Below the pieces are notes generated by a model. That model did not search any database. It saw only the letters and a program-made list of their open reading frames with translations, and had not been told where the DNA came from. From the NCBI RefSeq assembly GCF_001984155.1, contig NZ_MTQO01000051.1, positions 310,001 to 374,000 on the forward strand: 64,000 bases of DNA. Reading direction: 5' to 3'. The translations under genes and the position numbers were made by a program. Source of the stretch: Actinosynnema sp. ALI-1.44. GTDB lineage: Bacteria; Actinomycetota; Actinomycetes; Mycobacteriales; Pseudonocardiaceae. Positions 7,675 to 59,216 of the stretch are shown piece by piece; within the stretch, counting starts at the first letter, position 1, and each line of letters starts with the position of its first letter.

Positions 7675-7677
7675 GAC

Positions 7678-8451: not shown

Positions 8452-8453
8452 CG

Positions 8454-34312: not shown

Positions 34313-34327
34313 GTCCGGGGGAGAACC

Positions 34328-40461: not shown

Positions 40462-40497
40462 CCCAAGCTCGGTCCTTCAGGGCCGAGAAGTTGACGT
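40462..40497 (+). mobile_element. Right end of the TnpB element (hairpin and GTTGAC terminus)
   Basis: The hairpin CTCGG-TCC-TTCA-GGG-CCGAG (40468-40487), followed by AAGTTGAC, is the right-end/omega-RNA 3' pattern I know from actinobacterial IS1341-type elements. The cytochrome P450 stop codon lies inside the hairpin loop, so the element supplies the last codons of that gene. I cannot define the left end. Confidence 0.6.
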
Positions 40498-41865: not shown

Positions 41866-41886
41866 TGTTTCGCCTCCAGGGATCGA

Positions 41887-42720: not shown

Positions 42721-42885
42721 CGTTCCCCTTCCCGATGGGTTTCGATGAAACGCTAGTGCCCCCGGCTTGAACCTCGCTCCAGCCGATCCGGCTCGACTCG
42801 TTGTATAGCACCGGGGTTTACCCTTCGAGGCAAGCGTTTCCCCGTCGATGTGGGCCTTCCCGAGGATCTGCTGGAGGAGAAGAAC
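42721..42885. promoter_or_regulatory. Divergent promoter region, methyltransferase-P450 / carbamoyltransferase
   Basis: A 165-base region. TTGTATAGC (42801-42809) contains TATA-like boxes on both strands and is the only AT-rich point. GGAGGAG just before 42886 is the ribosome site of the carbamoyltransferase and decides its start. Confidence 0.4.
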
Positions 42886-44529
42886 GTGAATTCAGTACTC
42901 GGTCTTGGCGGATCCGGCCACGACTGGTCGTCGTGCGCCACCGACGGTCGCCGCATGGTCGCCGTGGACGAGGAGCGGCTGATCCGCAGCAAGTACGGCC
43001 TCGGGGCCGATCTGCTCGCCGGTGTCAGCCGACAGGTGGTGTTGGACCAGATCGGCGTTCCGGCGGACAAAGTGGAGCACGTGGTGGCCTGTGAACTGGT
43101 ACCACGCACGTTCTACTACTCCTTCCGAAACCGTGTGGTCGTGATCAACCACCACCTCGCCCACGCCTACAGCGCGTTCGGCGCGTCCGGGTTCACCCGG
43201 GCGGCCGTGCTGGTGACGGACAACTCCGGCAGCCTGGTGCTCGGGTCGAAGACGGGCAACGGCCCGCGCGAGGTCGAGACCATCAGTGGTTTCGTCGCCG
43301 ACGACACCGGAATTCGCCTGGTGCACCGGGTCAGCGGCCAGCACATCGTGGACGCCGACTCGGAGAGCGCGTTCTACCAGCCGGGGGAGACCGACAACTC
43401 GCTCGGCGCCTTCTACCGCGCCGCGAGCATCGCCGCGGGACTCGCCTACACCGGGCCGAAAACGCGGTTCCCGGTCAGCGAGGACGGCAAGACCATGGGC
43501 CTGGCCCCGTACGGGGACAACCGTTTCCTCGACGAGGTGTCCGAACTGGTCGACCTCCAGCCGGACGGCGAAGTGCGGATCTCGGTGGGCAAGGCGGCGC
43601 ACGTGTTCCAGCGGATGGTGTCGTCCGGTTCGTTCGAGGACAAGGCCGCGCTCGCCTTCGCGGCACAGGACGTCCTGGAACGCGCGCTCGTCCACTGTGC
43701 TCAGGCGCTGCACGAGCGCACCGGGTTGACCGACCTGTGCATCGCGGGTGGCGTCGGGCTCAACAGCGTGGCCAACTACCGGATACTGAAGGAAACCCCG
43801 TTCGAGCGGATCTTCGTCGTTCCCGCTGCCGGGGACAACGGCATCAGCCTCGGGTGCGCCTACTACGGGCTGCACCAGCTGGCAGGCGTCCCGATGGCCG
43901 AGTTGCCCACGCTGAACGACGCCTACCTCGGACCGGAGTACCCGGAATGGCAGGTGGACGAGGCGATCGAACGCACCGGCTTCACCGTCCGGCGCCCCGA
44001 CGACCTGCCCGCCGAGGTGGCCGCGTTGCTGGCGCGGCGCAAGATCGTCGGCTGGTTCGACGGCCGGTCCGAGTTCGGTCCACGCGCGCTCGGGCACAGG
44101 AGCATCCTCACCGCGCCGTTCCCGGGCGAGATGCGGGATCACCTCAACAACAACGTGAAGTTCCGCGAGTGGTTCCGGCCCTACGCCCCGATGATCCCCG
44201 AGGAGCGCTACCAGGAGTACTTCGACCTGGCGCAGCCTTCGCCGTACATGCTGATCGTCGCCGATGTGACCAGGCCGGACGCCATCCCGGCGGCCACCCA
44301 TGTGGACGGTACGGCACGCCTGCAGACCGTGGCGAAGTCGGCGAACCCGAAGATCCACGCGCTGTTGGGCGAGTTCGAGGCGCTGACCGGTGTGCCGGTC
44401 GTGCTCAACACCTCGTTCAACGTGGCAGGCCAGCCGATCGTGGAGACACCGCGGGACGCGGTCGACGCGTTCGGGGCCATGCCGCTGGACCACCTGGTGC
44501 TCGGGGACCGACTGCTCAGCCGCGCCTGA
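42886..44529 (+). CDS. NodU/TobZ-type O-carbamoyltransferase (MmcS-like)
   Basis: A 547-residue carbamoyltransferase. The N-terminal Kae1-like domain has VLGLGGSGHDWSSCATDG, the metal histidines in INHHLAHAYSAF near residue 90, VTDNSGS and KTMGLAPYGD. The C-terminal YrdC-like domain has FDGRSEFGPRALGHRSIL near 390-405 and VLNTSFNVAGQPIVETP. It joins carbamoyl phosphate with ATP and moves the carbamoyl group to a hydroxyl. Mitomycins carry a 10-O-carbamate, so this gene supports the product class strongly. The GTG at 42886 is chosen for its GGAGGAG site; an upstream GTG at 42850 would add 12 residues. The next gene starts ten bases after its stop. Confidence 0.92.
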   Translation: MNSVLGLGGSGHDWSSCATDGRRMVAVDEERLIRSKYGLGADLLAGVSRQVVLDQIGVPADKVEHVVACELVPRTFYYSFRNRVVVINHHLAHAYSAFGASGFTRAAVLVTDNSGSLVLGSKTGNGPREVETISGFVADDTGIRLVHRVSGQHIVDADSESAFYQPGETDNSLGAFYRAASIAAGLAYTGPKTRFPVSEDGKTMGLAPYGDNRFLDEVSELVDLQPDGEVRISVGKAAHVFQRMVSSGSFEDKAALAFAAQDVLERALVHCAQALHERTGLTDLCIAGGVGLNSVANYRILKETPFERIFVVPAAGDNGISLGCAYYGLHQLAGVPMAELPTLNDAYLGPEYPEWQVDEAIERTGFTVRRPDDLPAEVAALLARRKIVGWFDGRSEFGPRALGHRSILTAPFPGEMRDHLNNNVKFREWFRPYAPMIPEERYQEYFDLAQPSPYMLIVADVTRPDAIPAATHVDGTARLQTVAKSANPKIHALLGEFEALTGVPVVLNTSFNVAGQPIVETPRDAVDAFGAMPLDHLVLGDRLLSRA

Positions 44530-44538
44530 AGGCACCCG

Positions 44539-46152
44539 ATGCGCACCGATGTGCCGGTCCTCATCGTCGGCGGCGGGCCGGTCGGTCTGTCCGCGGCGCT
44601 TTTCCTGGCCCGCCAGGGAGTTCGGTCGTTGCTGGTGGAGCGCCGCGGCACCACCTCGCCGATGCCACGGGCCACCCACGTCACCCGGCGCAGCATGGAA
44701 CTGTTCCGGGAAGCCGGACTGGAACCGGAGATCGCGGCTGCGGGCTACGCGGTGGTCCCGGCGCAGGACCCTAGGGCGGTGTCCGATCCCGAACGGACAC
44801 TGCCCAGGGTGGTGTTCGGCGTCGAGTCGATCGCGGATCTGCACCGGCGGGCGGAGATCCTGGAAACCGGAGTGGAGGAGTTGGCCGTGCCGGGGCCCAG
44901 CCCGCCCTACTGGTGCGGGCAGGACCGGCTGGAGCCCATTCTGCGCCGTGCCGCGGTACGCGCGGGCGCCGACGTCCGGTTCGAGCACGAACTCGTCGAC
45001 CTGGACATCCGGGACGCGGAGGTCACGGCGCGGATCCACGGCAGGAAGACCGGGCGAACGCAGACGTGTCACCCGCGTTACGTGATCGCGGCCGACGGCG
45101 CGTCCGGCCGGACCGCCGAGGCGGCGGAGATCCCGTTCGGCGGACTAGGAACGATAGCCAGCCGGGTGTCGATCCTGTTCCGCGCGGACCTGACTGGGCT
45201 GATCGGTGCGCGCCGGTTCTTCATGGCGATGATCGAGAACGAGAAGTTCTCCGGGGCGGTCATGTCGCTCAACGAGAAGCACCGGTGGGCGGCCGCGGTC
45301 GACCAGTCGCTGGCGGGGGACACCAGCCCGGATCGGTGTGTCGCACTGGTGCGGTCGGCGATCGGTGACCCCGCGGTGGACGTGACGATGGACGGCGTCT
45401 TCCGCTGGGAAGCCAGGCACCGCATGGCCATGGCCTACCGGGCGGGACCGCTGTTCGTGATGGGCGACGCGGCGCACGTGCACCCGCCATCCGGTGGGTT
45501 CGGCTCCAACGTCGGCTTCCAGGACGCGCACAACCTGGCCTGGAAGATGGCGGCGGTGGTGAAAGGCTGGGCAGGGCAGTCACTCCTGGACACCTACGAC
45601 ACCGAACGCAGGCCGGTGGCGACGGCGACGGCGGAACAGACACTGCTCCTGGACGGCGTGCCGTCGGAACGGCTGGGCGGCGCGACCTCCCGCGACCAGC
45701 GGATCGTGATCATGGGCTACCGCTACGCCTCCCAGGCCGTGCTGGGTGCGGTGCCGGACGTACCGTTCCCGGAGACGTTCGGACTGCACGGCGTACCGGG
45801 CACTCGTGTCCCGCACGTCCACATCGGTGGATCGTCCACCATGGACGCGCTGGGTGCGGGCTTCGTGTTGTTCTCCCCGGATCCAAGGTGGCTGGAGACG
45901 GCGGCGAAGGTGGAGCTCGAGCTCGCGGTACCAGTGGAGGCACGCCACGTCGCGCCAACCGCGGCCACGGCCTTCGCCGAGGCATGCGGCACGGGAAGCC
46001 ACGGCGCCATCCTGGTCCGTCCGGACGGCTTCGTCGCCTGGCGCCGTGTGGCCCGGAAGTCACAGACCGAACGCGACCGGTACCTCTGCCTGACTGCGGT
46101 GCTGAAACGCTTCGCTGCCATCAACGAGCGCGACTCGGCACCCACACAGTGA
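44539..46152 (+). CDS. Group A FAD-dependent aromatic monooxygenase
   Basis: A 537-residue PHBH-type monooxygenase. The FAD fold starts VLIVGGGPVGLSAALFLARQG, DG motif YVIAADGASGRTAEAA lies near residues 178-193, and the GD motif FVMGDAAHVHPPSGGFGSN near 308-326. The C-terminal thioredoxin-like domain ends with ILVRPDGFVAWR. It would hydroxylate an aromatic ring with NAD(P)H and oxygen. In an AHBA-derived pathway, ring hydroxylation toward the quinone is the natural role, but this is inferred. It follows the carbamoyltransferase closely and ends the cluster operon on this side. Confidence 0.88.
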   Translation: MRTDVPVLIVGGGPVGLSAALFLARQGVRSLLVERRGTTSPMPRATHVTRRSMELFREAGLEPEIAAAGYAVVPAQDPRAVSDPERTLPRVVFGVESIADLHRRAEILETGVEELAVPGPSPPYWCGQDRLEPILRRAAVRAGADVRFEHELVDLDIRDAEVTARIHGRKTGRTQTCHPRYVIAADGASGRTAEAAEIPFGGLGTIASRVSILFRADLTGLIGARRFFMAMIENEKFSGAVMSLNEKHRWAAAVDQSLAGDTSPDRCVALVRSAIGDPAVDVTMDGVFRWEARHRMAMAYRAGPLFVMGDAAHVHPPSGGFGSNVGFQDAHNLAWKMAAVVKGWAGQSLLDTYDTERRPVATATAEQTLLLDGVPSERLGGATSRDQRIVIMGYRYASQAVLGAVPDVPFPETFGLHGVPGTRVPHVHIGGSSTMDALGAGFVLFSPDPRWLETAAKVELELAVPVEARHVAPTAATAFAEACGTGSHGAILVRPDGFVAWRRVARKSQTERDRYLCLTAVLKRFAAINERDSAPTQ

Positions 46153-47432: not shown

Positions 47433-49037
47433 CTAGCCGGTGAGGTAGACCTGCTCGAACCGGGCGTTGCCGAATGTCCGGCCGGCGAAGTCGAACTTCG
47501 GCCAGCCCGCTGTCCTGGTGCTGTGCGCGTTCTCGACGTTGGCGAAGAACGGGATGATCCAGCCGCCGCGGTCGTACTGGATCCGGTACATCCGCTGCGT
47601 CAGCTCGGCCTGCTTGGCCTGGTCGACGGTGGCCTGGGCCTGCTCGTAGAGCGACCGGAGCTCGCCAAGGTCCTGTCCGCCCATGTGTGTCAGCGTGGTC
47701 GTGTCGCTGAGGTCCGTCAGCGCCGACAGCGTCAGGTAGCTGCCCTGCGGCGGCCATTTGTCCACGGAGAACGGCCAGTTGTGGAAGTTCGGGCCGAACA
47801 GCGTCGCCGTGTCCACCTGCTTGACGTTGACGGTGATCCCGATCTCGGCGGCGTTCTTGGCCAGTACCGTGCACATGGCCACCGCTTCGGTGGACACCGG
47901 GCCGGTGACCAGTTCGACCGTGAGACCTTCCCGCCCCGCCTGCTTGAGCAGCTCCCGGGCTTGAGCGACGTCCCGCTTGCGGGTCAGGGCCGCGGGATAG
48001 CCCGGGGCGAACGGTTCGGGCAGGTCGTGCGCCACCACGCCGTGGCCTGACAGGCACGCGGTGAGCGCCTGGTCGCGGTCGATGGCCAGGCGCAGTGCCT
48101 GCCGTACCCGCACGTCGTCGAACGGGGGCTTGCGCATGTCCATGTAGATGCCGGTCCACGCACCGGTCTTGGACTCCAGCAGCTTCAGGCCGGGCTTCTG
48201 CTCGATCGTCGGGATCTGCGCGTACGGCACCTGGTTGATCGCGTCCACCTGGCCGGTCACCAACGCGTTGATCCGCGCCGAGTCGTCGTTGATCACGTTC
48301 ACCACCAGCTCGTCCAGGTACGGCTTGGGGCCGAGGTCCGCCGGTGCGGGCGTGTCGCTCGGCTGGGACTCGCCGGTGGCGTCCCAGTAGTTGCCGAACC
48401 GCTCGCACACCCACTGCCGGTTCGGCGAGAAGCTCTTGTACCTGAACGGACCGGTGCCGACCGGGGTGCGCGGGTCGAATCCGACCGGAATGATCTTGAA
48501 CGGGCTGGCCAGCGCGGTCTGGAAGGTCGCGGCCGGTCGGATCAGCTTCATCCGGAGCGTGCGCTGGTCGAGTTTGGTGATGGCGTTGAGATCGACGAAC
48601 GGCTTGAACTTCCCGACGGTCACCGCGCCGGGTAAGGAGAAGGTCCGCTGGAAGGTGAACAGGACGTCGTCCGCGTCGAGCGTCTTGCCGTTGTGGAACT
48701 CGATGCCCTGCCTGACCCGGATGGTCCACTCGTCACCGGTCGCGTTGGACTCGATCACCTCCGCCATCCGCACCTGGTACTGCATCTCGTTGCTGTAGTC
48801 GGCGAGCTGGTCGTAGAGCACGCGTGCCATGAAGCTGACCGGGGCGCTGTTGAGCAGCATCGGATCCACGGTGTCCGATCCCTTGGCGCCACCGGTCGCG
48901 ACGGTCAGCCTGCCGCCGCGTCGCGGTGCGCCGCCTGCTTGGGCGGGGCCGCCGCCACAGGCCGCGAGCAGGCTGAGCGCGGCGGCGGAGCCGAGGAATC
49001 CACGTCGGCTCAGTCCCGGCGTCGGTTGCGTGGTCAT
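47433..49037 (-). CDS. ABC transporter substrate-binding lipoprotein (DppA/OppA family 5)
   Basis: A 534-residue solute-binding protein. A Tat-type signal (LSRRGFLGSAAALSLLAACGGG) ends in a lipobox with Cys28 (LAAC), so it is a membrane-anchored lipoprotein. The mature protein shows the family 5 pattern (GGRLTVATGG, QYQVRMAEVIESNATGDEWTI, VRQALRLAIDRDQAL). It captures a peptide-like or other small organic ligand for the permease genes of the same operon. It is the last gene of the operon and overlaps the ATPase gene by four bases. Its ligand may be the substrate of the enzymes at 53-59 kb, because both operons share an operator. Confidence 0.92.
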   Translation of the reverse strand: MTTQPTPGLSRRGFLGSAAALSLLAACGGGPAQAGGAPRRGGRLTVATGGAKGSDTVDPMLLNSAPVSFMARVLYDQLADYSNEMQYQVRMAEVIESNATGDEWTIRVRQGIEFHNGKTLDADDVLFTFQRTFSLPGAVTVGKFKPFVDLNAITKLDQRTLRMKLIRPAATFQTALASPFKIIPVGFDPRTPVGTGPFRYKSFSPNRQWVCERFGNYWDATGESQPSDTPAPADLGPKPYLDELVVNVINDDSARINALVTGQVDAINQVPYAQIPTIEQKPGLKLLESKTGAWTGIYMDMRKPPFDDVRVRQALRLAIDRDQALTACLSGHGVVAHDLPEPFAPGYPAALTRKRDVAQARELLKQAGREGLTVELVTGPVSTEAVAMCTVLAKNAAEIGITVNVKQVDTATLFGPNFHNWPFSVDKWPPQGSYLTLSALTDLSDTTTLTHMGGQDLGELRSLYEQAQATVDQAKQAELTQRMYRIQYDRGGWIIPFFANVENAHSTRTAGWPKFDFAGRTFGNARFEQVYLTG

Positions 49038-50842
49038 GAGTGGTCCTCCCGGGACGGTACTGGGGCAGACGCGGCCCGGAATTCCGGTGTCGCCGCGATG
49101 AGCTTCTGGGTGAACGGATCGCGGGGCCGGTCGAGGACGTCATCGACCCGACCTGTCTCGACGAGCCGCCCTTCGCGCATGGCGATGACACGGTCCGCCA
49201 CGGTACGAACGAGCGCGAGGTTGTGTGTGACGAACAGCAACGCCAGGCCTTCTTCGTCCTGGAGCCTGCGCAGCAGCCGCACGATCGACGCCTGAACCGA
49301 GACGTCCAACGCGGACGTGATCTCGTCGCAGATCAGCACCTCGGGACGGCACACCAGTGCCCGTGCGATCGCGACACGTTGCCGTTCGCCGCCGGACAGC
49401 TGGTTCGGATACGACGACGCCATGCTCGGCGCGAGCGACACGCGCTCCAGCGTTTCGCTGATCGCCGCCGTCGCCTTGGCTGTCGGCATGGAGAACAGCA
49501 CCTTCAACGGTTCACGCAGGGTCTCACCGATCGTGCGTCGCGGGTTGAGCGAGTTGTACGGGCTCTGGAAGATGTACTGCACCGCGCGGCGCATCGCCAA
49601 CGGCCGGTCCCTGGCCCTGATCGCCATCTCGTTGTCCCGGAATAAGATCCCGCCACTGTGCTTGTGGTGCAGGCCGATGATGCTGCGCGCCAGGGTAGTC
49701 TTGCCGCATCCTGATTCACCGACCAGCGCGAGACACTCCCGGCTCGCCAGGTCCAGCGACACGTCGTGCAGGATCTGCTTCTTGCCGTGGAACGCGTCCA
49801 AACGCGACACGCGAAGCAAGACGTCGTCGCCGATGTCCTCGCGCGGTGCGGCCGTGCGCGCGGTGGCACGGGCAGGACCGGCGGCGAGAGGTTCGGCGCG
49901 GATACAGCGAACGCTGTGCCCATCGCCGACCTCGATCGGTTCCAGAACCGCCGTCGCACACTCCGGCACAGCCTCGGAACACCTAGGGTGGAACGCACAA
50001 CCGGTGGGACGGCGACCGGGCGACGGCGTATCACCGGGAATCGCGACCAGTTCCCGGCGCTGGGACACCACCGGCACCGCGGCCAGCAACGCGCGGGTGT
50101 ACGGATGCACTGGCTTGTCGAAGATCTGCGTGATCGCGCCGGACTCCACGACCCGGCCCGCGTACATGACCAGGATCCGGTCGGCCAGGTCCGCCACGAC
50201 CGCCATGTCATGCGTGACGTACAGCGCCGCGACCTGGTGCGCCGCGCACAACTCGCGGATCGTGCGCAGCACCAGGGCTTGTGTGGTGACGTCGAGTCCG
50301 GTGGTCGGCTCGTCGAGCACGATCACGCGCGGGCGCAACACGAACGCCAGCGCCAACGTGATTCGTTGCTGTTGGCCGCCGGACAGCTGATGCGGGAAAC
50401 GGTCAAGGAACGCGTCGTCGGAGTCCAGGCCGACCTCGCGCAGGGTTGTCCTGATCCGCTCGTCCCGCTGCCCGGCGGGGACCTCCCGTTGGTGAAACTC
50501 GAACAGTTCATGCAGTTGCGTGCCCAGCCGCAGTGCGGGGTTGAGCGCCATCGACGGATCCTGCGGCACGTACGCGACCGTGCTGCCGCGTAACGACGTC
50601 AGCTCGTCCGGGCCGAGGCCCACGATGTCCTGCCCGTCGATCAGCACGCAACCGCCGACGATCCGCGCCCCGCGCCGGGCGTCACCGAGCAACGCCAGCC
50701 CCACCGTCGTCTTCCCCGAGCCGGACTCGCCGACCAGGCCGAGCACCTCGCCCGCGCGGATGGTGAAGTCGACGCAGTCGACCACGTCCACGCCCCGCCC
50801 GTCCAGGTCGATGCGCAGCCCGCTGACCGTCACCGCCGTCAT
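49034..50842 (-). CDS. Fused double ATPase of a peptide/nickel-type ABC transporter (DppD-DppF)
   Basis: A 602-residue protein with two ABC ATPase domains. Domain 1 has Walker A LVGESGSGKTTVGLALLG near residues 36-53, signature LSGGQQQRITLALAF and Walker B VIVLDEPTTGLD. The oligopeptide-type cysteine linker (GCAFHPRCSEAVPEC) follows near residue 290. Domain 2 has LVGESGCGKTTLARSIIG, LSGGERQRVAIARAL and LICDEITSALD. It energises uptake by the two permeases. The ATG at 50842 overlaps the permease stop (ATGA); the longer frame upstream lies in that gene. Confidence 0.93.
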   Translation of the reverse strand: MTAVTVSGLRIDLDGRGVDVVDCVDFTIRAGEVLGLVGESGSGKTTVGLALLGDARRGARIVGGCVLIDGQDIVGLGPDELTSLRGSTVAYVPQDPSMALNPALRLGTQLHELFEFHQREVPAGQRDERIRTTLREVGLDSDDAFLDRFPHQLSGGQQQRITLALAFVLRPRVIVLDEPTTGLDVTTQALVLRTIRELCAAHQVAALYVTHDMAVVADLADRILVMYAGRVVESGAITQIFDKPVHPYTRALLAAVPVVSQRRELVAIPGDTPSPGRRPTGCAFHPRCSEAVPECATAVLEPIEVGDGHSVRCIRAEPLAAGPARATARTAAPREDIGDDVLLRVSRLDAFHGKKQILHDVSLDLASRECLALVGESGCGKTTLARSIIGLHHKHSGGILFRDNEMAIRARDRPLAMRRAVQYIFQSPYNSLNPRRTIGETLREPLKVLFSMPTAKATAAISETLERVSLAPSMASSYPNQLSGGERQRVAIARALVCRPEVLICDEITSALDVSVQASIVRLLRRLQDEEGLALLFVTHNLALVRTVADRVIAMREGRLVETGRVDDVLDRPRDPFTQKLIAATPEFRAASAPVPSREDHS

Positions 50843-51681
50843 GAATGTCCCTCCTGCGGGGAGACGCGGGCGACTGTGCGCGCGAATCCCTCGGTGATCA
50901 GGTTGGTGCCGAACGTGAACAGCGCGACACACAGCACGGGCACCACTACGCCCCACGGTTGCAGTGCCAGGCCCTGGTAGTTCTCCTTGATCATCAGACC
51001 CCAGTCGGCCGCGGGCGGCTGCAGGCCGACGCCGAGGAAGCTCATCGCCGTCACGACTCCGATGGACCAGGTCAGCCGCAGTCCGAACTCGACCATCAAC
51101 GGCGTCATCACGTTCGGCAGGATCTCCCGCCGTACGATTCGCAACCGCGGTGCGCCGAGCGTCTCCGCCGATTCGACGAACTCGCGTGACACCACCTCGC
51201 GAGCCGCGCCATACGCGACTCTGGCGACCTGCGGCAACCACGCGATCGCAACGATCAACGGCATCAACGCGGTGTCCGCGCCCGCCATGGCCATCAGCAG
51301 CAGGATGAGCACGAGCGGAGGGAACGCGCGCAGCACGTCCATGGCGCGCATCAGCAGTTCGTCCATGACGCCACCGCTGTAGGCAGCGGTCATCCCGATC
51401 ACGGCACCGGCCGTGACGCCGACGAGTGTGCCGACGAACGAGATCCACACGATGCTCTGACCGCCCGCGAGCACGCGGGACAGCACATCTTCGCCGAGGT
51501 AGTCGGTACCGAGCAACGCGGTCGCGCTGGACGGCGCGTAGGGGGCGCCGACGATGTCGCTGTGCGCGTGGGGCGCGATGAGCGGGCCGACGACGATGAC
51601 CAGCAGGATCAGCCCGGTCAGCACCAGTCCGATGCGCATGCGCGGTTCACGGAGGCTGCGGCGCAGCAGTGTGGTGTTCAT
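50839..51681 (-). CDS. ABC transporter permease (DppC type)
   Basis: A 280-residue membrane protein with about six transmembrane segments (LVLTGLILLVIVVGPLIAP first) and the EAA loop ESAETLGAPRLRIVRREILPN near residues 175-195. It pairs with the DppB-type permease. ATG at 51681 overlaps that gene's stop by four bases. Confidence 0.92.
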   Translation of the reverse strand: MNTTLLRRSLREPRMRIGLVLTGLILLVIVVGPLIAPHAHSDIVGAPYAPSSATALLGTDYLGEDVLSRVLAGGQSIVWISFVGTLVGVTAGAVIGMTAAYSGGVMDELLMRAMDVLRAFPPLVLILLLMAMAGADTALMPLIVAIAWLPQVARVAYGAAREVVSREFVESAETLGAPRLRIVRREILPNVMTPLMVEFGLRLTWSIGVVTAMSFLGVGLQPPAADWGLMIKENYQGLALQPWGVVVPVLCVALFTFGTNLITEGFARTVARVSPQEGHS

Positions 51682-52655
51682 CGGCCTGCCGTTCGCAGGC
51701 GGGGCGTGACATACACGGTCAGCACGTCTCCGATGAGGTTGAAGACCACGTAACAGGCGGCGAAGATCAGGCAGATCAGCTGGATCACCGGCACGTCGCG
51801 GTTGTTCACCGCGTCGACCAGCGCGCTGCCGAGGCCGGGGTAGTTGAAGACCTGCTCGATGACCACGATGCCGCCGGTCAGGTAGGCCAGGGCGAGTGAG
51901 GTGCCCTGGATCGCCGGGACGAGGGCGTTGCGCAGCACATGTCGCCGCAGCACCACACGTTCCGGGACGCCTTTGAGCCGTGCTGTGCGGACGTATTCCG
52001 ACTCGTACACGTCGATCACCGAGCCACGCACGAGCCGCGCCAGGTACGGCAGAACTCCGAGCACAAGTGCCACGACCGGGAGTACGAGCTGCTCGGCGTT
52101 GCTCAGCGGACTCTGACCAGGAGCGAGCAGCACGGTCCCAGGCAGTACGGGGAACACCGAGGTGGAGAACAGGATCACCAGCAGCAGCGCGATGATGAAC
52201 TCGGGCAACGCGGTGAGACCGAGCGTGACCACGAGCACCACCCGGTCGACTGGCCGATCGCGCCTGCGACCGGCCCACGCGCCGACGAAGACTGACAACG
52301 GCACCACGATGGCCGCCGCGACCAGCACGAGCACCGCCGAGTTGACCGCCCGGTCGCCGATCAGCGTGCTGACTTGTTCCTGGGTGACCAGTGATCGGCC
52401 GGGGTCACCGCTGAGCACGCCACCCAGCCACGCGAAGTACTGGTCGAGGATCGGCCGGTCGAGGCCGAGTTCGGTGCGCAGCGCGGCGACTCGCTCCGGT
52501 GTCGCGTCGTGACCGAGCACCGCGCGGGCGGGATCGCCGGGCAGTACCTGCGTCGCGAGGAACACCAGGACTGACACGAGCAGCACCACGACCACACCGA
52601 GCAGGAGGCGCCGCGACAGCCACAGCCGCCGGGCTACGGAGGAACTTCCGTCCAC
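51678..52655 (-). CDS. ABC transporter permease (DppB type), first gene of the operon
   Basis: A 325-residue membrane protein. Its first transmembrane helix (LLLGVVVVLLVSVLVFLATQVLPGDPAR) is followed by the DppB-type PGDPARAVLG loop, later helices and the EAA-type loop YVRTARLKGVPERVVLRRHVLRN. The GTG at 52655 has GAGGTGA seven bases upstream; the longer frame lies in non-coding and opposite-strand sequence. A palindromic operator lies between this gene and the acetyltransferase. Confidence 0.9.
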   Translation of the reverse strand: MDGSSSVARRLWLSRRLLLGVVVVLLVSVLVFLATQVLPGDPARAVLGHDATPERVAALRTELGLDRPILDQYFAWLGGVLSGDPGRSLVTQEQVSTLIGDRAVNSAVLVLVAAAIVVPLSVFVGAWAGRRRDRPVDRVVLVVTLGLTALPEFIIALLLVILFSTSVFPVLPGTVLLAPGQSPLSNAEQLVLPVVALVLGVLPYLARLVRGSVIDVYESEYVRTARLKGVPERVVLRRHVLRNALVPAIQGTSLALAYLTGGIVVIEQVFNYPGLGSALVDAVNNRDVPVIQLICLIFAACYVVFNLIGDVLTVYVTPRLRTAGR

Positions 52656-52698
52656 GTGATCACCTCGTTGTGACTGGTACTGAGGGAGGATGCTCTGC

Positions 52699-52719
52699 GG
52701 TGTTGTGACTGTCAACACC
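52699..52719. promoter_or_regulatory. Palindromic operator GGTGTTG-N7-CAACACC at the dpp-like promoter
   Basis: A perfect seven-base inverted repeat with a seven-base centre. On the minus strand TTGACA (52715-52710) lies within it and is followed, 17 bases on, by CATCCT. This would be the -35/-10 of the transporter operon. The same GTGTTG-N7-CAACAC palindrome lies at 53231-53249. Confidence 0.7.
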
Positions 52720-52730
52720 TTGCGCTCGGA

Positions 52731-52743
52731 TAACCTGGTGGTG
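52731..52743 (+). promoter_or_regulatory. Probable leaderless promoter of the acetyltransferase gene
   Basis: TAACCT at 52731-52736 lies six bases before the GTG start at 52743, the spacing of a leaderless message. The palindrome at 52699-52719 would lie over its -35 region. Confidence 0.45.
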
Positions 52744-53237
52744 TGGAGATCGTGATCGGCCGGGCCCTGCCCGGTGACGTGCCCGCGATCCTGCGGATCC
52801 GCCGGGCCGCGGAGGACTGGCTCGCGGCGGCCGGGATCCGGCAGTGGCAGCCGGGCTGGCTGACAGCCGAGCGGCTGGACGCGGAGATCGGCCGTGGTGA
52901 ATGGCAGGTCGCACGAGGCGATGCCGGTGTGTGCGGCGCGCTGCGGCTGCTGTGGTCCGACGAGGCGGTGTGGCAGGCCGACAACGCGTTCGCCGGCTAC
53001 GTGCACGGTCTGGTGATCGACCGGCGGCATACCGGGCTGGGTTCGCGAATGCTCGACTGGGCGGGGGAGCGGGCCGTCGAAGCAGGTGCTTCGTTGCTGC
53101 GGCTGGATTGCGTATCGCACAACACGCGATTGCGTCAGTACTACCTGGATCAGGGATTCCGCGAGTTCGGTGAGCGGGCGGCGTACGGCGGCTGGACCAT
53201 GGCGCTGTTCGAGAAGCGGCTCGGCACTGTGTGTTGA
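52743..53237 (+). CDS. GNAT-family N-acetyltransferase
   Basis: A 164-residue acetyltransferase. The core acetyl-CoA motif VHGLVIDRRHTGLGSRMLDWAGERA lies near residues 82-106, and the C-terminal LRQYYLDQGFREFGERAA is typical. It transfers an acetyl group from acetyl-CoA to an amine; the substrate is unknown. It is divergent from the transporter operon and is followed by the second operator. Its last codons overlap that palindrome. A role in detoxifying or trapping the imported amine is a guess. Confidence 0.87.
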   Translation: MEIVIGRALPGDVPAILRIRRAAEDWLAAAGIRQWQPGWLTAERLDAEIGRGEWQVARGDAGVCGALRLLWSDEAVWQADNAFAGYVHGLVIDRRHTGLGSRMLDWAGERAVEAGASLLRLDCVSHNTRLRQYYLDQGFREFGERAAYGGWTMALFEKRLGTVC

Positions 53238-53263
53238 CAACGACAACACCGCGCTCGCATACT
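53231..53263 (+). promoter_or_regulatory. Palindromic operator GTGTTG-N7-CAACAC and promoter of the REDY-LLM operon
   Basis: GTGTTG (53231-53236) and CAACAC (53244-53249) form the same spaced palindrome as at 52699. TTGACA (53234-53239) lies in it, and CATACT (53258-53263) follows after 18 bases, a good promoter pair 72 bases before the first gene. The stretch ACAACACCGC after the -35 is identical in both promoters. Confidence 0.7.
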
Positions 53264-53334
53264 CGGAGCCGTTCCAAGGGGACAGTGCCGTTCCCTGGCG
53301 ACATTCCGCTGGCGTTGACGAACGGAGTGCGACG

Positions 53335-53646
53335 GTGCAGAAGGTCTACTGCCTGTACAAGTTGAAGCCCGGCGTGACGGCCGAGAAGTACATCGAGTGG
53401 TCGAAGACCGTCGACCAGGCGATCACCCGGCAGCAGCCCTGTGTGCACCAGTTCCGCGTGTACCGCTTCGAAGGGCGTCGCGGTGGCGAGGCCCCGTGGG
53501 ACGTGATCGAGGACATCGACGTCGAATCGTGGGAGGCGTGGGAGAAGTGCCTGACCACGCCCGAAATGGCCGACGTGGTCAAGGGTTTCCGCGAGATGGC
53601 CGACCGCGACTCGGCGGTGACCGTGTTCGGCAGCGAGATCGTCTAG
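53335..53646 (+). CDS. REDY/HapK-like (dimeric alpha-beta barrel) small protein
   Basis: A 103-residue protein starting QKVYCLYKLKPGVTAEKYIEWSKTVDQ. This is the EthD/REDY-type ferredoxin-like fold pattern (strand, long helix, strand, then VYRFEGR and DVESWEAWEKCL). HapK-like members of this family occur in prodigiosin clusters; their function is unclear, and others bind small molecules or aid degradation. The GTG at 53335 has CGGAG seven bases upstream. It is the first gene of the operon and ends four bases before the LLM gene. Confidence 0.75.
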   Translation: MQKVYCLYKLKPGVTAEKYIEWSKTVDQAITRQQPCVHQFRVYRFEGRRGGEAPWDVIEDIDVESWEAWEKCLTTPEMADVVKGFREMADRDSAVTVFGSEIV

Positions 53647-53650
53647 GTCG

Positions 53651-54583
53651 GTGGCCGGTACGGCTGTGACGAGCGCGCCCCGGCTCTCGGTCGGGGCACC
53701 GAACGACCCGGCCCTGCTCGTGCCGTTCGCCCGGCGCGCCGAGAAGCTCGGTTTCACCGGAATCTGGACGCAGGACACGCTGAGCACCGCGAACATCTCG
53801 CTCGACGGCCTGCATGTGCTGTCCCACCTCGCGGCCGTCACCGACCGGATACGCCTGGGCATCGGTGTGCTGTACTCCGGACGGCGCAATCCGGCCGTGC
53901 AGGCTCGCGAACTGGCCACCATCGACCAGCTCTCCGGCGGGCGGTTGACCGTCGGGCTCGGCATCGGCAACGAGTACCACCGTGAATCCCTTGCCGCACT
54001 GGGCATCCAGACCGACAGGCCGGTCCGCAGGCTGGTCGACGGGATCGGCGTGATGCGGGCGCTGTGGACCGGATCGGACTACGACGGCGAGCTGTACTCC
54101 TTCACCGGCATCCGGTCGCAACCGCCGCCGGTGCAACGGCCCGGACCGCCCATCTGGATCGGTGCCCGCGCGGAATCGGCGCTGCGCCGGGCAGTGCGGA
54201 TCGCCGACGGCTGGACCGGCGCCGCTCCTGTTGCCACGCAGGACTTCCTCGACCAGCTCGCGATAGTGCACCGGGCCATCGCCGACCAGGGCCGGGATCC
54301 GGCCACCTTCACCGTCTCCAAGAGCGTCTACGTCGCCGTGGAGGACACGGTGCGCGAGGCCCGGCAGCGCCTGGTTCCCGCGTTCGACCGGGCCTTCGGC
54401 GCGAATCCGGTGTACGACGCGGCGGGAATGGCCGACCGCGTCGCGGTCTTCGGCCCGCCGGAGCACTGTGCGCAGCGGCTGCGTGAACTGTTCGACGCGG
54501 GCGTGCACGAGCTGATCCTGTACCCGATGTACGACCGGATGGCCCAGCTCGAAGCGTTCGGCAGCCTGGTTGGACGCCCATGA
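53651..54583 (+). CDS. LLM-class F420-dependent oxidoreductase
   Basis: A 310-residue luciferase-like enzyme. PFARRAEKLGFTGIWTQDTL, RLGIGVLYSGRRNPAVQARELATIDQLSGGRLTVGLGIG, SALRRAVRIADGWTGAAP and FGPPEHCAQRLRELFDAGVHELILYP are the conserved barrel segments. It may oxidise or N-dealkylate an imported substrate. It overlaps the next gene by four bases. The start is a GTG at 53651. Confidence 0.87.
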   Translation: MAGTAVTSAPRLSVGAPNDPALLVPFARRAEKLGFTGIWTQDTLSTANISLDGLHVLSHLAAVTDRIRLGIGVLYSGRRNPAVQARELATIDQLSGGRLTVGLGIGNEYHRESLAALGIQTDRPVRRLVDGIGVMRALWTGSDYDGELYSFTGIRSQPPPVQRPGPPIWIGARAESALRRAVRIADGWTGAAPVATQDFLDQLAIVHRAIADQGRDPATFTVSKSVYVAVEDTVREARQRLVPAFDRAFGANPVYDAAGMADRVAVFGPPEHCAQRLRELFDAGVHELILYPMYDRMAQLEAFGSLVGRP

Positions 54584-56700
54584 ACGCCACGCTGCTCGGC
54601 TACGTCGATCCGCTGAGTGTCCGGGCGGGCGGCGAGATCCGGCTGATGGTGAGCGCCACCAGCGGCTACGAGGTCGAGCTGCTGCGTCTCGTGCACGGCA
54701 CCGACGATCCGCGCGGACCGGGCGTCCGCGAGGAGCGCGTCGACATCCCGATCGATCCTCAACCCGCTCGGATACAGCCGTGGCCCGCTGGTTCCTACCT
54801 GTCCGCGCCCGCGCATCCAGCGCTGGACGTCGACACCTTCACCGTGACCGCGTGGATCATGCCGACGATGACCGCGGGAGGGCGGCCGCGTGCCATCGTC
54901 TCCCGCCGGGCGAATGGTGGTTGGGCGAACGGCGGCTGGGCGCTTGGCCTGACCGGGGACGACCGGCTCGCGGCGTGGGCCGGTCCGTCCGACGAACCGC
55001 TGGTCACCACCGACACCCCGATCCCTTGTGATCGCTGGACGTTCGTCACCGCCGCCTTCAGCCCCCAGGGCGTGGCGCTGGAACAGGTCCCGGTCCCTGA
55101 GTGGCCGGTTGGCTCGTGGCGTGCGACAGCGTCGTATGACGGGCCGGTCGATGTGGCGGCGTCAGGTATTCCCGTGCAGGTCGCGGCGTGGCAGGGGACG
55201 GCGTGCTTCAACGGCCGGATCGACCGCCCGGCCATCGCCACCCCCGCTGGTGTCCTGGCCCGCTGGCGTCCAGTTCACGGTAGCGAAGGCGTGACCGACG
55301 ACGGTCCGCACGGCCTCACAGCCGTTGCCGTCAACACGCCTGCCCGTGGCGTGCCCGGTGCGAACTGGACCGGCCGGGAGATCGACTTCCGGCTCGCCCC
55401 CGACGAGTACGGCGCGATCCACTACCACGACGACGACATGACCGACGCCCAGTGGGAACCGCAGGTCACCGTGCGCCTTCCGGACGACCTGCGCAGCGGC
55501 GTCTACGCATTTCGGTTGCGAGCCGGGCACGACGAGCTGAGCATCCCGTTCTACGTCCGTCCCGCGAAGCCCACCGCGCGGGTCGCGGTCCTGATCCCGA
55601 CCTTCACCTACCTCGCCTACGCCAACTCCCACGGCACGCTGGAGAAAGCAGGCCCGGACGGACTGGACTACGCCACGACCGTCCAGCACCAATGGGCCGC
55701 CGCGCACAAGGTGTGCAGCCTCTACGACCTGCACCGCGACGGCAGCGGCTGCTACTACGCGTCCCGCCTGCGTCCGCTCACCACGATCACGCCGACCTAC
55801 GCCGGACCGTTCGGGCTGTGGAACCTCAGCGCGGACCTGTGCCTGATCGACTGGCTCGAACACGAGGGCATCGCCTACGACATCGTCTGCGACGACGACC
55901 TGCACAGCGAGGGCGTCGCCGCGCTGGCCGACTACTCGGTGGTCCTCACCGGCTCACACCCGGAGTACTACACCGCGCCGATGCTGGACGGGCACGAGGC
56001 GTACCTGGCAGGCGGCGGTCGGCTGATGTACCTGGGCGGCAACGGTTACTACTGGGTGACCGGCGTCTCGCCGGAGCAGCCGCACGTCATCGAGATCCGC
56101 CGTGGCCACACCGGGACGAGAGGCTGGGAGGTGCCGCCGGGCGAGACGCACCTGAGCACCACCGGCGAGGCGGGCGGACTGTGGCGGCATCGTGGCCGTG
56201 CGCCGCAGCGGCACGTCGGCGTCGGGTTCACCGCACAGGGTGGACGCGGCCGGGGGCGTCCATACCACCAGGTTCCGCTCACGGACGGACGCGGCGCGTT
56301 CGCTCTGTCCGAAGTGGACGACCTGATCGACGCGGACGGACTGGTCAGCCATGCGGCGGCTGGAATGGAGGTCGACCGGGCCGATCCGTCGCTCGGGACA
56401 CCACCGCATACCGTCGTACTGGCCACCGCGTCGGGCTTCAGCGACCACTTCCAGCTCGCCGTCGAAGAGGTGCTCACGTCGAACTCGCGGCAGGGTGGCA
56501 CCGTCGAACCACGTGTCCGCGCGGACCTGGTGTTCCTCGAGTGTCCCCACGGAGGTGGCGTGTTCAGCACCGGCTCGATCGCCTGGTGCACCACGCTCGG
56601 CGTCGACGGTTACGACAACCCGGTGGCACGCGTGACCGGCAACGTGCTGCGCCGCTTCCTCGATCCCACCCCTCTGGTGAACAGTGCTGGCCCAAGGTGA
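54580..56700 (+). CDS. N,N-dimethylformamidase large-subunit-like protein
   Basis: A 706-residue protein. The N-terminal third has a LamG-like beta-sandwich (FTVTAWIMPTM, DRWTFVTAAFSP). From about residue 330 the Rossmann-like DMFase core runs: VAVLIPTFTYLAYANS, LCLIDWLEHEGIAYDIVCDDD, VVLTGSHPEYYTAPMLDGHE (Tyr463/464) and LMYLGGNGYYWV (Tyr490/491). As I recall, DMFase binds one iron through two tyrosines and a glutamate, and these conserved tyrosines sit in matching places. DMFase hydrolyses dialkylformamides to amine and formate, so amide hydrolysis of the imported or LLM-oxidised substrate is plausible. No small DMFase subunit is seen. Confidence 0.8.
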   Translation: MNATLLGYVDPLSVRAGGEIRLMVSATSGYEVELLRLVHGTDDPRGPGVREERVDIPIDPQPARIQPWPAGSYLSAPAHPALDVDTFTVTAWIMPTMTAGGRPRAIVSRRANGGWANGGWALGLTGDDRLAAWAGPSDEPLVTTDTPIPCDRWTFVTAAFSPQGVALEQVPVPEWPVGSWRATASYDGPVDVAASGIPVQVAAWQGTACFNGRIDRPAIATPAGVLARWRPVHGSEGVTDDGPHGLTAVAVNTPARGVPGANWTGREIDFRLAPDEYGAIHYHDDDMTDAQWEPQVTVRLPDDLRSGVYAFRLRAGHDELSIPFYVRPAKPTARVAVLIPTFTYLAYANSHGTLEKAGPDGLDYATTVQHQWAAAHKVCSLYDLHRDGSGCYYASRLRPLTTITPTYAGPFGLWNLSADLCLIDWLEHEGIAYDIVCDDDLHSEGVAALADYSVVLTGSHPEYYTAPMLDGHEAYLAGGGRLMYLGGNGYYWVTGVSPEQPHVIEIRRGHTGTRGWEVPPGETHLSTTGEAGGLWRHRGRAPQRHVGVGFTAQGGRGRGRPYHQVPLTDGRGAFALSEVDDLIDADGLVSHAAAGMEVDRADPSLGTPPHTVVLATASGFSDHFQLAVEEVLTSNSRQGGTVEPRVRADLVFLECPHGGGVFSTGSIAWCTTLGVDGYDNPVARVTGNVLRRFLDPTPLVNSAGPR

Positions 56701-56739
56701 CCAAGCGTCGAAATTTCGGGGAGGCGGAACAGCCATGAC
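56690..56739 (+). repeat. Leader repeat, copy 2 (before aminotransferase gene)
   Basis: A 50-base segment ending at the aminotransferase ATG matches 13553-13601 with five mismatches and one gap. It includes the ribosome-binding block cggggaggcgg and overlaps the end of the DMFase-like gene. Confidence 0.75.
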
Positions 56740-58021
56740 GGGGATCGATCCGGGGCGCCTTGACGTGATGCTGGCGCGTGAACGCGCCGCGTGGACCGCG
56801 GCCAGGCCCAAAGCCGTCGCACTCCGCGAACGAGCTCGCCGCTCCCAGTTGCACGGCACCCCGCAGCACTGGATCCACCAGTTCCCACCGCCCGTGCCAC
56901 TCGTCGTCGACCGGGCGGCGGGTGCGCGGCTGTACGACACCGATGGGCACGAGTACGCCGACTTCGGCTTGGCTGGTACGGCCGCGTTGTGGGGCCACAA
57001 CCATCCGGCGGTGGTCGCGGCTGTGCGCGAGCAGGTCGACCGCGGCAGCGTCACGCTATGGTCGAGCGAGGACCACGTGTGGGTGACCGAGGAGCTGCAC
57101 CGCCGTTTCGGTTTGCCGTTCTGGCAGTTCGCCGTGTCCGCGACCGACGCCAACCGGTTCGCGTTGACGCTGGCCCGCGCGGCCACCGGACGGCGGCGGG
57201 TCGTGGTGTTCAACCACGCCTACCACGGCTCGGTGGACGAGTCCCTCGCCGATTCCGTCGGCGTGGAGTTCAACGACGTCGACGCGCTTGACCAAGCGCT
57301 CGCGGCACGGGACGTCGCCGCCGTCCTCGCCGAACCGGTGATGACCAACGGCGGAGCCGTGATCCACCCGCGACCCGGTTTCCACGCCGCGCTGCGTGAC
57401 CTCACCCGGCGAACCGGCACACTGCTGATCCTCGACGAGACGCAGACCATCCCGGCCGGTCCCGGCGGCTGCACCGGCGAACTGGGTCTGGAGCCTGACC
57501 TGATCACCATGGGCAAGTGCCTCGCGGGCGGCATCCCCGCAGGGGTGTACGGGATGACCGACGAGGTGGCGGCAGCGGCCACCCGGTACACCGAGTCGGG
57601 AGACGGTGGCCTCGGCAGCACGATGGCAAGCGGACCGCTGGCCGTGCGAGCGATGCGTGCGGTACTCGGTGACGTGATGACTGATGCGACGTACGCACAC
57701 ATGAAACGCCTGGCCGTACGCTACGCGAACGACGTCACGACAGTGATCGCCAAGCATGATCTGCCATGGCATGTCGGCAGGCTCGGTGGGCGTGTCTCGT
57801 ATGCCTTCATGCCGGAACCACCACACAGTGCCAGTCAAATGTACCCGCCGGTCGGAGTGTCTGTGCGCGAGGCGTTGTGGCTGTACTTGGCCAACCGCGG
57901 CATCGTGCTCAACGGTATGAGCGGCGCGGCTTTGATGTCACCGATGACTGTCGAGTCCGATGTGGAACGACACGGGGTGTTGTTCGCCGAGGCGATCAGC
58001 GAACTGTGTGACCATGGATGA
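56735..58021 (+). CDS. Class III aminotransferase (glutamate-1-semialdehyde aminomutase-like)
   Basis: A 428-residue PLP enzyme. It has LYDTDGHEYADFGLAGTAALWGHNHP near residues 65-90, a short serine-alanine variant of the cofactor loop (VSATDANRFALTLARAATG), VVVFNHAYHGSVDES, the aspartate strand LLILDETQTIPAGPGG near 230-245 and the lysine in ITMGKCLAGGIPAGVYG near 265. The end is the usual GSA-aminomutase type. It moves an amino group on a semialdehyde or 2-oxo acid, or between neighbouring carbons. The ATG at 56735 has GGGGAGGCGG upstream. It overlaps the next gene by eight bases. Confidence 0.87.
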   Translation: MTGIDPGRLDVMLARERAAWTAARPKAVALRERARRSQLHGTPQHWIHQFPPPVPLVVDRAAGARLYDTDGHEYADFGLAGTAALWGHNHPAVVAAVREQVDRGSVTLWSSEDHVWVTEELHRRFGLPFWQFAVSATDANRFALTLARAATGRRRVVVFNHAYHGSVDESLADSVGVEFNDVDALDQALAARDVAAVLAEPVMTNGGAVIHPRPGFHAALRDLTRRTGTLLILDETQTIPAGPGGCTGELGLEPDLITMGKCLAGGIPAGVYGMTDEVAAAATRYTESGDGGLGSTMASGPLAVRAMRAVLGDVMTDATYAHMKRLAVRYANDVTTVIAKHDLPWHVGRLGGRVSYAFMPEPPHSASQMYPPVGVSVREALWLYLANRGIVLNGMSGAALMSPMTVESDVERHGVLFAEAISELCDHG

Positions 58022-59216
58022 GGTCACGGACGCGCGGATCCAGCAGTTCCGCGCCGACATCAACCAGTCCAGGGTGCCTGGTGCCTTCGAACCGGGCCGG
58101 TGGTCCGTGGCTCCCGCGAACCGGGACGTCGCGATGCCCGCCCGGATCCGGTTGCGTGACACCACGATGCGCTCGGTCGCTCCCCGGGCGAGGGGTGAGT
58201 TCACCAGGCTGTTGGCTGGCAGTGGAGTGCCGGAGATCGTGACCACCGATCCGGCCGACCTGGAGGTGATCAAGGAAGAACAGCCGGGGTGCCTGGTATG
58301 GCGTCCGTTCGTCTCCACTGTGGACGGAGTGGACCGTGCGTTGGCTGACGGATACGACGGCGTGCAGGTGTCGGTGCCGGGATTCGGTCCGGCGTCGGGG
58401 ATCTACGGCCCACCGATCCCCGCTTCGCGCTCGGAGGTGGTGGACCGGGCGGCCGCTGTCGTGGCACACGCGTCACGGCTGCGAGTCACCGCCGCATTGA
58501 CGATGGTGTCGTACTTGACCGCTGATGTCCTTGTCGAAACGGTGTCCGCGCTGGCCGACGCGGGCGCGGACGAGATCGCCTTGTTCGACGGGCCAGGTGC
58601 GGTCGGCCCCGAGGCGTTCGGCCACCTGGTCTCGGCGGTCAAAGCGGTCGCGCCCGATCTCGACGTCGGTGTCCACCCGCACAACACCTTCGGGCTCGCG
58701 GTCGCGTGTGCCGTCGCAGCGGCGCGGGCGGGAGCGGTCGTGGTGGAATCGTCGGTGAACGGATACTGCGGCGGCCCGGGTAACGCCGACCTCGCCGCAA
58801 CCGCAGCGGCGTTCGAGGCACTGTACGGTGTGGACACCGGTGTCCGGCTGCACACGTTGACCGGCCTCTCGCGTGCCGGTGCGGAGCTGACCGATCAGCC
58901 GCTGCCCTTCAGCCAACCGATCACCGGTCGCGACGCGTTCTGCTGGGGCGGGGCTGACTGGGTGATCCTCGAGTCCGAAGTGGATCCGTTGTTGCACAAC
59001 TGCGTCGAGCCCGGCCTGGTCGGCAACGAGCGCCGTGTCCCGTTGACCGCGCAAAGCGGCCCACGGACCGTCGCCGCCACACTGCGACGCCTGGGCATCG
59101 AGCTCGACCCGGCGGTACTCCCGGCCATTGTGGACCGATGCCACGCGGAACTGCGCGCTCGGGGGCGTTCGCTGACCGACGACGAGATCCGCGCGATCGT
59201 CGCTGGCGCGCTCTGA
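58014..59216 (+). CDS. HMG-CoA lyase-like (pyruvate carboxyltransferase family) enzyme
   Basis: A 400-residue TIM-barrel enzyme of the HMG-CoA-lyase/homocitrate-synthase family. RLRDTTMRSVAPRA carries the N-terminal catalytic Arg-Asp, the metal histidines are in GVHPHNTFGLAVACAVAAARAGA near residues 214-236, and VESSVNGYCGGPGNADL is the glycine-rich family signature. The family cleaves or forms carbon-carbon bonds next to thioesters or keto acids. Here it might cleave the aminotransferase product, ending the pathway. The ATG at 58014 lies inside the end of the aminotransferase gene. A terminator follows. Confidence 0.84.
   Translation: MDEVTDARIQQFRADINQSRVPGAFEPGRWSVAPANRDVAMPARIRLRDTTMRSVAPRARGEFTRLLAGSGVPEIVTTDPADLEVIKEEQPGCLVWRPFVSTVDGVDRALADGYDGVQVSVPGFGPASGIYGPPIPASRSEVVDRAAAVVAHASRLRVTAALTMVSYLTADVLVETVSALADAGADEIALFDGPGAVGPEAFGHLVSAVKAVAPDLDVGVHPHNTFGLAVACAVAAARAGAVVVESSVNGYCGGPGNADLAATAAAFEALYGVDTGVRLHTLTGLSRAGAELTDQPLPFSQPITGRDAFCWGGADWVILESEVDPLLHNCVEPGLVGNERRVPLTAQSGPRTVAATLRRLGIELDPAVLPAIVDRCHAELRARGRSLTDDEIRAIVAGAL

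Follow-up and report, generated by a model that had tools for sequence, protein, structure and literature searches.

Genes and promoters around the two palindromes

The window, a stretch of 64,000 nucleotides of DNA from Actinosynnema sp. ALI-1.44, carries the genes of an oligopeptide-type ABC transporter on its minus strand and, facing away from them on the plus strand, a GNAT acetyltransferase gene followed by REDY/HapK-like, luciferase-like (LLM), DMFase-like, class-III aminotransferase and HMGL-like genes (Table 1). Compared with solved structures, the DMFase-like protein matches DMFase at 2e-111 and N-acetyl-(R)-beta-phenylalanine acylase at 4e-95. The best PDB match of the aminotransferase AT3b is an unnamed "probable aminotransferase", followed by glutamate-1-semialdehyde aminomutases, beta-transaminases and beta-phenylalanine aminotransferase.

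Table 1. Predicted features of the window cluster, and the candidate regulator gene (window positions unless a locus is given)
Feature	Position	Strand	Basis and remarks
Solute-binding protein, family 5	47433..49037	-	Pfam SBP_bac_5
Fused double ATPase, oligopeptide-type ABC transporter	49034..50848	-	Pfam ABC_tran twice, oligo_HPY; start approximate
permC, ABC transporter permease	50839..51681	-	Pfam BPD_transp_1; start chosen by eye
permB, ABC transporter permease	51678..52655	-	Pfam BPD_transp_1; start codon chosen by eye
ABC transporter operon promoter	52687..52715	-	TTGACA -35 at 52715-52710 inside operator 1, spacer 17 bp, CATCCT -10 at 52692-52687; read from the sequence, aligned with relatives
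Operator site 1 (predicted), GTGTTGTGACTGTCAACAC	52700..52718	+	Between permease gene (-) and GNAT gene (+)
Possible -10 GATAAC of a short-leader GNAT promoter	52729..52734	+	Other side of operator 1; no clear -35
GNAT acetyltransferase	52743..53237	+	Pfam Acetyltransf_1
Operator site 2 (predicted), GTGTTGACAACGACAACAC	53231..53249	+	Upstream of REDY-LLM-DMFase operon
REDY-LLM-DMFase operon promoter	53234..53263	+	TTGACA -35 at 53234-53239 inside operator 2, spacer 18 bp, CATACT -10 at 53258-53263; aligned with relatives
REDY/HapK-like protein	53335..53646	+	Pfam HapK
Luciferase-like (LLM) oxidoreductase, perhaps F420-dependent	53651..54583	+	Pfam Bac_luciferase; best NCBIfam TIGR03619, just under cut-off
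DMFase large-subunit-like amidase	54580..56700	+	Pfam DMFA2_C; PDB matches DMFase and N-acetyl-(R)-beta-phenylalanine acylase
AT3b, class-III aminotransferase	56723..58021	+	Pfam; NCBIfam PRK07046 "transaminase" above cut-off
HMGLb, HMGL-like metallolyase/aldolase	58011..59216	+	Pfam HMGL-like
Candidate regulator, MarR-family, 176 aa	L016:7487-8017 (contig C40, window's genome G000)		Pfam

An earlier, sequence-only reading of this DNA had described a pair of GTGTTG-N7-CAACAC palindromes here, and both are present as the two exact matches of the window (none in 100 dinucleotide shuffles); the interval 52699-52719 that it gave for the first one is site 1 plus one more complementary pair. Aligned in the TTGACA direction, the two sites are identical at 16 of 19 bases, and both are found at the same position in five further species. 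The promoter features that it had read at the sites were also recovered: each palindrome covers a TTGACA -35 box, both palindromes are followed by ACAACACCGC and a CATnCT -10 (CATCCT for the transporter and CATACT for REDY), and the two promoters point apart with the GNAT gene in between. On the strand that carries TTGACA, the transporter promoter (minus) reads GTGTTGACAGTCACAACACCGCAGAGCATCCT and the REDY-LLM-DMFase promoter (plus) reads GTGTTGACAACGACAACACCGCGCTCGCATACT. A consensus promoter scan of positions 52300-53700 gave the REDY-side promoter as its single promoter-like match and did not report the transporter promoter.

A point missed in that reading is that the GNAT start lies 24 bp from site 1, with the site upstream. 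GATAA or GATAC stands before the GNAT start in the five aligned loci that have this gene, and together with the short distance to site 1 this means that three transcription units, not two, may respond, the GNAT gene being the possible third under site 1.

The Pfam search found no regulator among the ten genes of the units flanking the sites, in agreement with the earlier remark that no regulator gene lies next to them. The nearest regulator-like ORF seen, family scans having covered the window beyond its first 32 kb, is of AfsR/SARP type as judged by eye from its translation (window 61892-64000, plus strand, running off the end), approximately 8.6 kb from site 2; it is not among the flanking ORFs common to other DMFase loci. 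On the other side of the cluster, at window 32600-35941 and 40477-46152, there are LLM-domain, beta-lactamase-fold, P450, methyltransferase, carbamoyltransferase and FAD monooxygenase genes, which could be a secondary-metabolite region adjoining the regulon.

A MarR-family gene on another contig and the refined motif

The sequence-only reading had proposed to follow the palindrome through the genome, and held that a palindrome as common as chance predicts would speak against a shared operator. In the 11.7 Mb of the genome GTGTTG-N7-CAACAC is found exactly at three places, the two in the window and C40:190025, against 0.27 expected from base composition. When two mismatches are allowed there are 290 matches of the motif versus 240 of a reversed control, and we therefore place weight only on near-exact matches. 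The third exact place was the route to a candidate regulator: it follows a MarR-family gene at a distance of 8 bp and precedes an HMG-CoA lyase gene, and a fourth palindrome, CTGTTGTTATTGTCAACAG, lies between this MarR gene (+) and a divergent aldehyde dehydrogenase gene (-). From these four sites (two in the window, C40:190025 and CTGTTGTTATTGTCAACAG) we derived the 17-mer TGTTGWNNNTGTCAACA, which has five exact places in the window's genome, where 0.012 are expected from composition; the MarR locus has three of them and the window the other two. Newly found by this search were the exact place C40:185534 and the one-mismatch palindrome C40:185682, which stand before class-III aminotransferase and alpha/beta hydrolase genes. 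The MarR locus has four sites, located before the aminotransferase gene, before the hydrolase gene, between the aldehyde dehydrogenase and MarR genes, and before the HMG-CoA lyase gene; with the two of the window they make six exact-core sites at regulon promoters in this genome. The core of the operator is TGTTG-N7-CAACA and its typical form is the 17-mer TGTTGWNNNTGTCAACA. A further one-mismatch place of the 17-mer, C51:982889, is counted against our best explanation, and the one-mismatch match C30:178043 (L008) was rejected as a regulon site, being within or at the start of ORFs that look unlike those of the regulon.

The candidate protein matches two MarR models of Pfam, MarR_2 with 32.1 bits (cut-off 27) and MarR with 27.2 bits (cut-off 24.6). 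With a profile built from nine MarR orthologues, 47 distinct PDB sequences were matched at E <=0.001 (best 4.6e-22), most of them named as MarR-type regulators. Five MarR-type equivalog models of NCBIfam were also matched, all far below their cut-offs, and the candidate is therefore no named regulator. A pseudopalindromic site in the regulator's own, often divergent, promoter region is characteristic of the MarR family, and the candidate gene has one, the predicted site CTGTTGTTATTGTCAACAG; a site is also found before the MarR orthologues of relatives. The earlier guess of a GntR-, LacI- or TetR-type repressor is not supported, since the only other Pfam match is a sub-cut-off IclR HTH and no GntR, LacI or TetR domain was found in the candidate with Pfam and NCBIfam at E 0.001. 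Its suggestion that the controlling protein is encoded elsewhere fits the candidate gene, which lies on another contig; the link of this gene to the window sites therefore rests on motif and comparison.

Among the other products of the MarR locus are two enoyl-CoA hydratases, of which the second was assigned from its 32% match with the first; a CoA transferase of family III, an AMP ligase and a nitronate monooxygenase are encoded there as well. According to PDB matches the aldehyde dehydrogenase is of succinate-semialdehyde type and the lyase is an HMG-CoA lyase; the transaminase is of amine type, with putrescine aminotransferase as second PDB match. An ORF of 380 aa behind the hydrolase gene (L016:4686-5828) has no Pfam or NCBIfam match at E 0.001.

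Distribution of sites, regulator and gene clusters among relatives

In a sample of 200 genomes, the window's own included, the MarR gene is found in nine at a threshold of 1e-15 and a REDY orthologue in three at 1e-8, all three among the nine. Eight genomes belong to the genus, and at the same thresholds three have both genes and five have neither. The exact 17-mer is present in ten of the 200 genomes: seven of the nine with the MarR gene (5, 6, 6, 2, 2, 1, and 1 copies) and three of the 191 without it (one copy each), whereas the reversed pattern is present in two. The association with MarR gives a Fisher p of 1.8e-9, a value that treats related genomes as independent and uses a 17-mer derived from one of the nine. 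G075 and G087 possess MarR and no exact 17-mer, G087 having two exact-core sites. The single copies in genomes without MarR lie inside an ORF in G007, before a gene beside a TetR-like ORF (by eye) in G013, and in G115.

The relative position of the two clusters differs among genomes. In G002, assembled as one contig of 11.8 Mb, MarR is located at 6.718 Mb and REDY at 6.735 Mb, and the two clusters are therefore neighbours there; the window's genome and G005 have them on separate contigs, and we take G005 to be one assembly with Actinocrispum wychmicini DSM 45934. Both window sites are kept in G002 and G005, in the permease-GNAT gap and the GNAT-REDY gap. In G046, G079, G087, G090 and G111 sites stand by MarR and before HMG-CoA lyase, the latter with one core mismatch in G090 and G111. 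Two MarR proteins, at 54-56% identity, and only one-mismatch sites were found in G075, where the 20 kb read contains no HMG-CoA lyase cluster. On a third contig of G005, two copies of the 17-mer 75 bp apart lie upstream of an orthologue (78%) of the hydrolase, a gene that forms part of the MarR locus in G002 and in the window's genome; the operator thus accompanies this gene at the other location as well. Behind this orthologue and its two operators (L090:6407-9339, G005:C2) is an amidohydrolase-like ORF, recognized by eye and apparently split over two frames, 7532-7834 and 7798-9339. The MarR match of G111 (C3:81790-82299) has one TAG inside the matched stretch, for which either a start-site effect or a broken gene could account.

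When named genomes were scanned with the DMFase-like protein, 14 loci came up, four close ones at 71-78% identity and ten distant ones at 33-42%. The close loci are those of Actinocrispum, Actinomadura sp. KC06, and two Spongiactinospora species, and each of them carries both sites where the window has them. Together with the window and G002 this makes six of six close-module loci with both sites, in the families Pseudonocardiaceae, Thermomonosporaceae, and Streptosporangiaceae. No exact-core site was found at the ten distant loci (5.4 to 22 kb each), and no site at four distant DMFase-like loci of 4.6-5.2 kb in a sample of the phylum. The MarR profile was searched in seven of the 14 genomes of the scan, with one match each (E 1e-72 or better) in the three actinomycetes outside the family and none in four genomes whose DMFase-like protein is distant; Actinocrispum is covered as G005 by the sample of 200. 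In the three outside genomes the MarR locus has two sites, by MarR and before HMG-CoA lyase. Each of the six genomes in which the close DMFase cluster was found has a MarR orthologue. Among 396 genomes across the phylum MarR passes 1e-40 only in the window's own, so that its presence in the six is not explained by commonness.

The clusters themselves vary. Actinomadura sp. KC06 keeps both operators (L065:8375-9050), and the GNAT and REDY genes were not found between them by tblastn at 1e-8, so that neither gene seems to be needed for the module. Actinocrispum has an extra exact-core palindrome just behind the HMGL-like gene (L064:14705-14721; also L057:2218), absent there in the other five DMFase loci. 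Genes for a solute-binding protein and for one or two permeases of a further ABC transporter are located nearby in G002 and Spongiactinospora rosea.

An alignment of 40 sites without gaps reveals the shape of the operator across species. Positions 1-5 and 13-16 of the 17-mer do not vary, an A occupies base 17 in 38 sites, and the neighboring base is G or C in all 40 sites before the 17-mer and in 39 after it. Agreement averages 0.98-1.00 over the core, 0.71-0.86 over the spacer, and 0.50-0.70 over the flanks; the uniformity of the core is partly by construction, since the sites were picked at <=1 core mismatch (two of them, L060:9749 and L061:9709, have one). Left out of the table of 40 were the Actinocrispum DMFase-locus copies of L057, which we take to be the same assembly as L064, the site L064:14705 (= L057:2218), the one-mismatch site of G075 (L063:6768), and the two L090 sites. 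The presence of a site in each place does not follow from this selection: one is found in six of six permease-GNAT gaps, in six of six gaps before REDY or LLM, and, leaving out G075, before 11 of 11 MarR and 11 of 11 HMG-CoA lyase genes. The loci compared, 599,492 bases chosen for the genes or sites concerned, contain 42 exact-core sites, with the Actinocrispum DMFase-locus sites counted twice, against none of the reversed pattern and none in three mononucleotide shuffles.

A predicted MarR regulon, its alternatives and its possible pathway

It is highly likely, from the sequence comparisons, that the two palindromes of the window serve as operators for a MarR-family repressor whose gene lies on another contig (L016:7487-8017); this protein would occlude the -35 boxes and control one joint catabolic regulon. 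A small set of sites, including the window pair, is probably switched by this one repressor. The operator shared by the ABC transporter and REDY-LLM-DMFase operons, as predicted by the sequence-only reading, is supported by comparison, through the overlap with both -35 boxes, the mere three exact places in the genome and its recurrence at the same promoters across species, and so is the distant regulator; the assignment to GntR, LacI or TetR is not supported, and the regulon would also include the MarR locus with four more sites. A MarR dimer would sit on each operator with one winged helix per half, and in this state would block RNA polymerase from the -35 box. A pathway intermediate, perhaps a CoA thioester or an aldehyde as our guess, would then free MarR from the operator. 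After release the importer, the GNAT gene, and the REDY-LLM-DMFase-aminotransferase-HMGL-like operon would be switched on together with the MarR locus, comprising aminotransferase, hydrolase, aldehyde dehydrogenase, HMG-CoA lyase, two enoyl-CoA hydratases, CoA transferase, AMP ligase, and nitronate monooxygenase.

Several described systems resemble this arrangement. CouR is a MarR-family repressor of the cou genes in Rhodococcus jostii RHA1, whose operators are described as an inverted repeat, cATTGA-5 bp-TCAATg, overlapping a TTGAcA -35 box at four promoters, and p-coumaroyl-CoA abolishes its binding (PMC4737184). It shares with the present case the inverted repeat with 5-bp spacing over the -35 box, the single catabolic regulon and the actinomycete host (PMC4737184); the most symmetric counterpart here is TGTTGA-N5-TCAACA at L016:8027. 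The two differ in the half-site (TGTTGA here, cATTGA there), in the target genes, and in that the regulon here is split over two distant loci. The MexR site of Pseudomonas aeruginosa, inverted GTTGA repeats 5 bp apart (PII, GTTGACCTTATCAAC), has the same geometry and half-site core as the present operators (PMC9892617), whereas MexR controls an efflux pump and its protein similarity is at family level only (1lnw, E 3.1e-5). SCO3205 of Streptomyces coelicolor is reported as a MarR protein with pseudopalindromic operators, TTnAAnnnTCAA, between its own and a divergent gene and with few further genomic sites (PMC3737563); its consensus and targets are different. On the analogy of the CouR layout, the MexR site, and the SCO3205 case, repression by occlusion would be the most likely mode for the two window operons. 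Counting against a uniform mechanism, and lowering our confidence in this reading somewhat, the sites are not alike with respect to the promoter. TTGACA inside the site, read toward the gene, is found in all rows for the transporter (3/3), REDY (3/3), and aminotransferase (2/2), in 7/8 rows for HMG-CoA lyase, 3/5 for aldehyde dehydrogenase, and 1/2 for hydrolase, and in none for GNAT (0/3) or MarR (0/8); among the further species of the 40-site alignment it is present in the added transporter and REDY/LLM rows and absent from the three added HMG-CoA lyase rows. Occlusion of the -35 box may thus differ from promoter to promoter, and the site at the MarR gene and GNAT may act otherwise.

One alternative is that MarR acts at the window sites as an activator or dual regulator and not as a plain repressor, which we regard as improbable. 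SAV4189, a MarR protein, has been described as an activator, and TTGACA read toward the gene is absent on the GNAT side of site 1 and at MarR's own site. Against activation, the transporter and REDY sites cover a consensus TTGACA with a spacer of 17-18 bp, the usual place for occlusion, and CouR, with the same layout, represses (PMC4737184).

Slightly less probable still is that the palindromes are operators of some other regulator with overlapping specificity, MarR merely sharing the motif. The MarR gene is not adjacent to the window sites, and a loose first look gave 102 candidates for the MarR protein in the genome, 17 of them scored, so that other MarR-like proteins are likely. This is opposed by the motif standing beside the MarR gene in eight other genomes of the family (exact core in seven, one mismatch in G075) and in three genomes of two other families, and by just one protein of the window's genome having passed 1e-15. 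A search for a local regulator conserved next to the six DMFase loci also found none: in the flanks compared, the ORFs beyond the cluster are each common to two of the loci at most.

It is very unlikely that the repeats reflect conservation of the promoter itself, as an extended -35 region to which no regulator binds. The likeness of the two window promoters does run past the palindrome into ACAACACCGC and CATnCT, but the conserved unit is a two-fold palindrome on both sides of the -35 box with changing flanking bases, and the 17-mer is rare where the MarR gene is lacking, as counted above. Chance recurrence of a short palindrome, which the loose two-mismatch counts would allow since such matches mean little, is practically dismissed by the exact counts, the shuffles, and the same promoters in three families and five further species.

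The repressor model outlined above thus leaves the question of what the regulon serves. The gene content of both loci points to the import and degradation of a compound that contains nitrogen and may be N-acylated. Its identity is a guess; an N-acylated beta-amino acid or amine would be possible. The sites seem to turn on an uncharacterised nutrient-degradation pathway plus its importer. More tentatively, and with slightly more doubt than confidence, we propose that the regulon is an undescribed actinomycete pathway consisting of a core and a front-end module that was added in some species and is tied in only by the operator. The core would comprise MarR, the amine transaminase, aldehyde dehydrogenase, HMG-CoA lyase, CoA enzymes, and nitronate monooxygenase; the module would comprise the oligopeptide-type importer, LLM oxidoreductase, DMFase-like acylase, beta-transaminase-like enzyme, and aldolase, and might deacylate and transaminate an N-acyl beta-amino acid or related amide to feed the core. 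The operator would then stay with the genes even after the loci part. Among the matches listed in the open-access literature, as represented by titles and the starts of abstracts, none concerns this regulon or gene set, which is weak evidence of absence.

An anonymous palindrome has in this way become a testable circuit with a candidate regulator, six genomic sites, and the genes that they join. The comparison places the DMFase-LLM module and a distant HMG-CoA lyase operon in one pathway, for which the gene order of this genome alone would be insufficient, and an inducer screen of one MarR protein offers a way to find the substrate. The mechanism itself, a MarR catabolic regulon, is ordinary; the interest lies in a regulon that is rare and split, and in the undescribed pathway that it marks.
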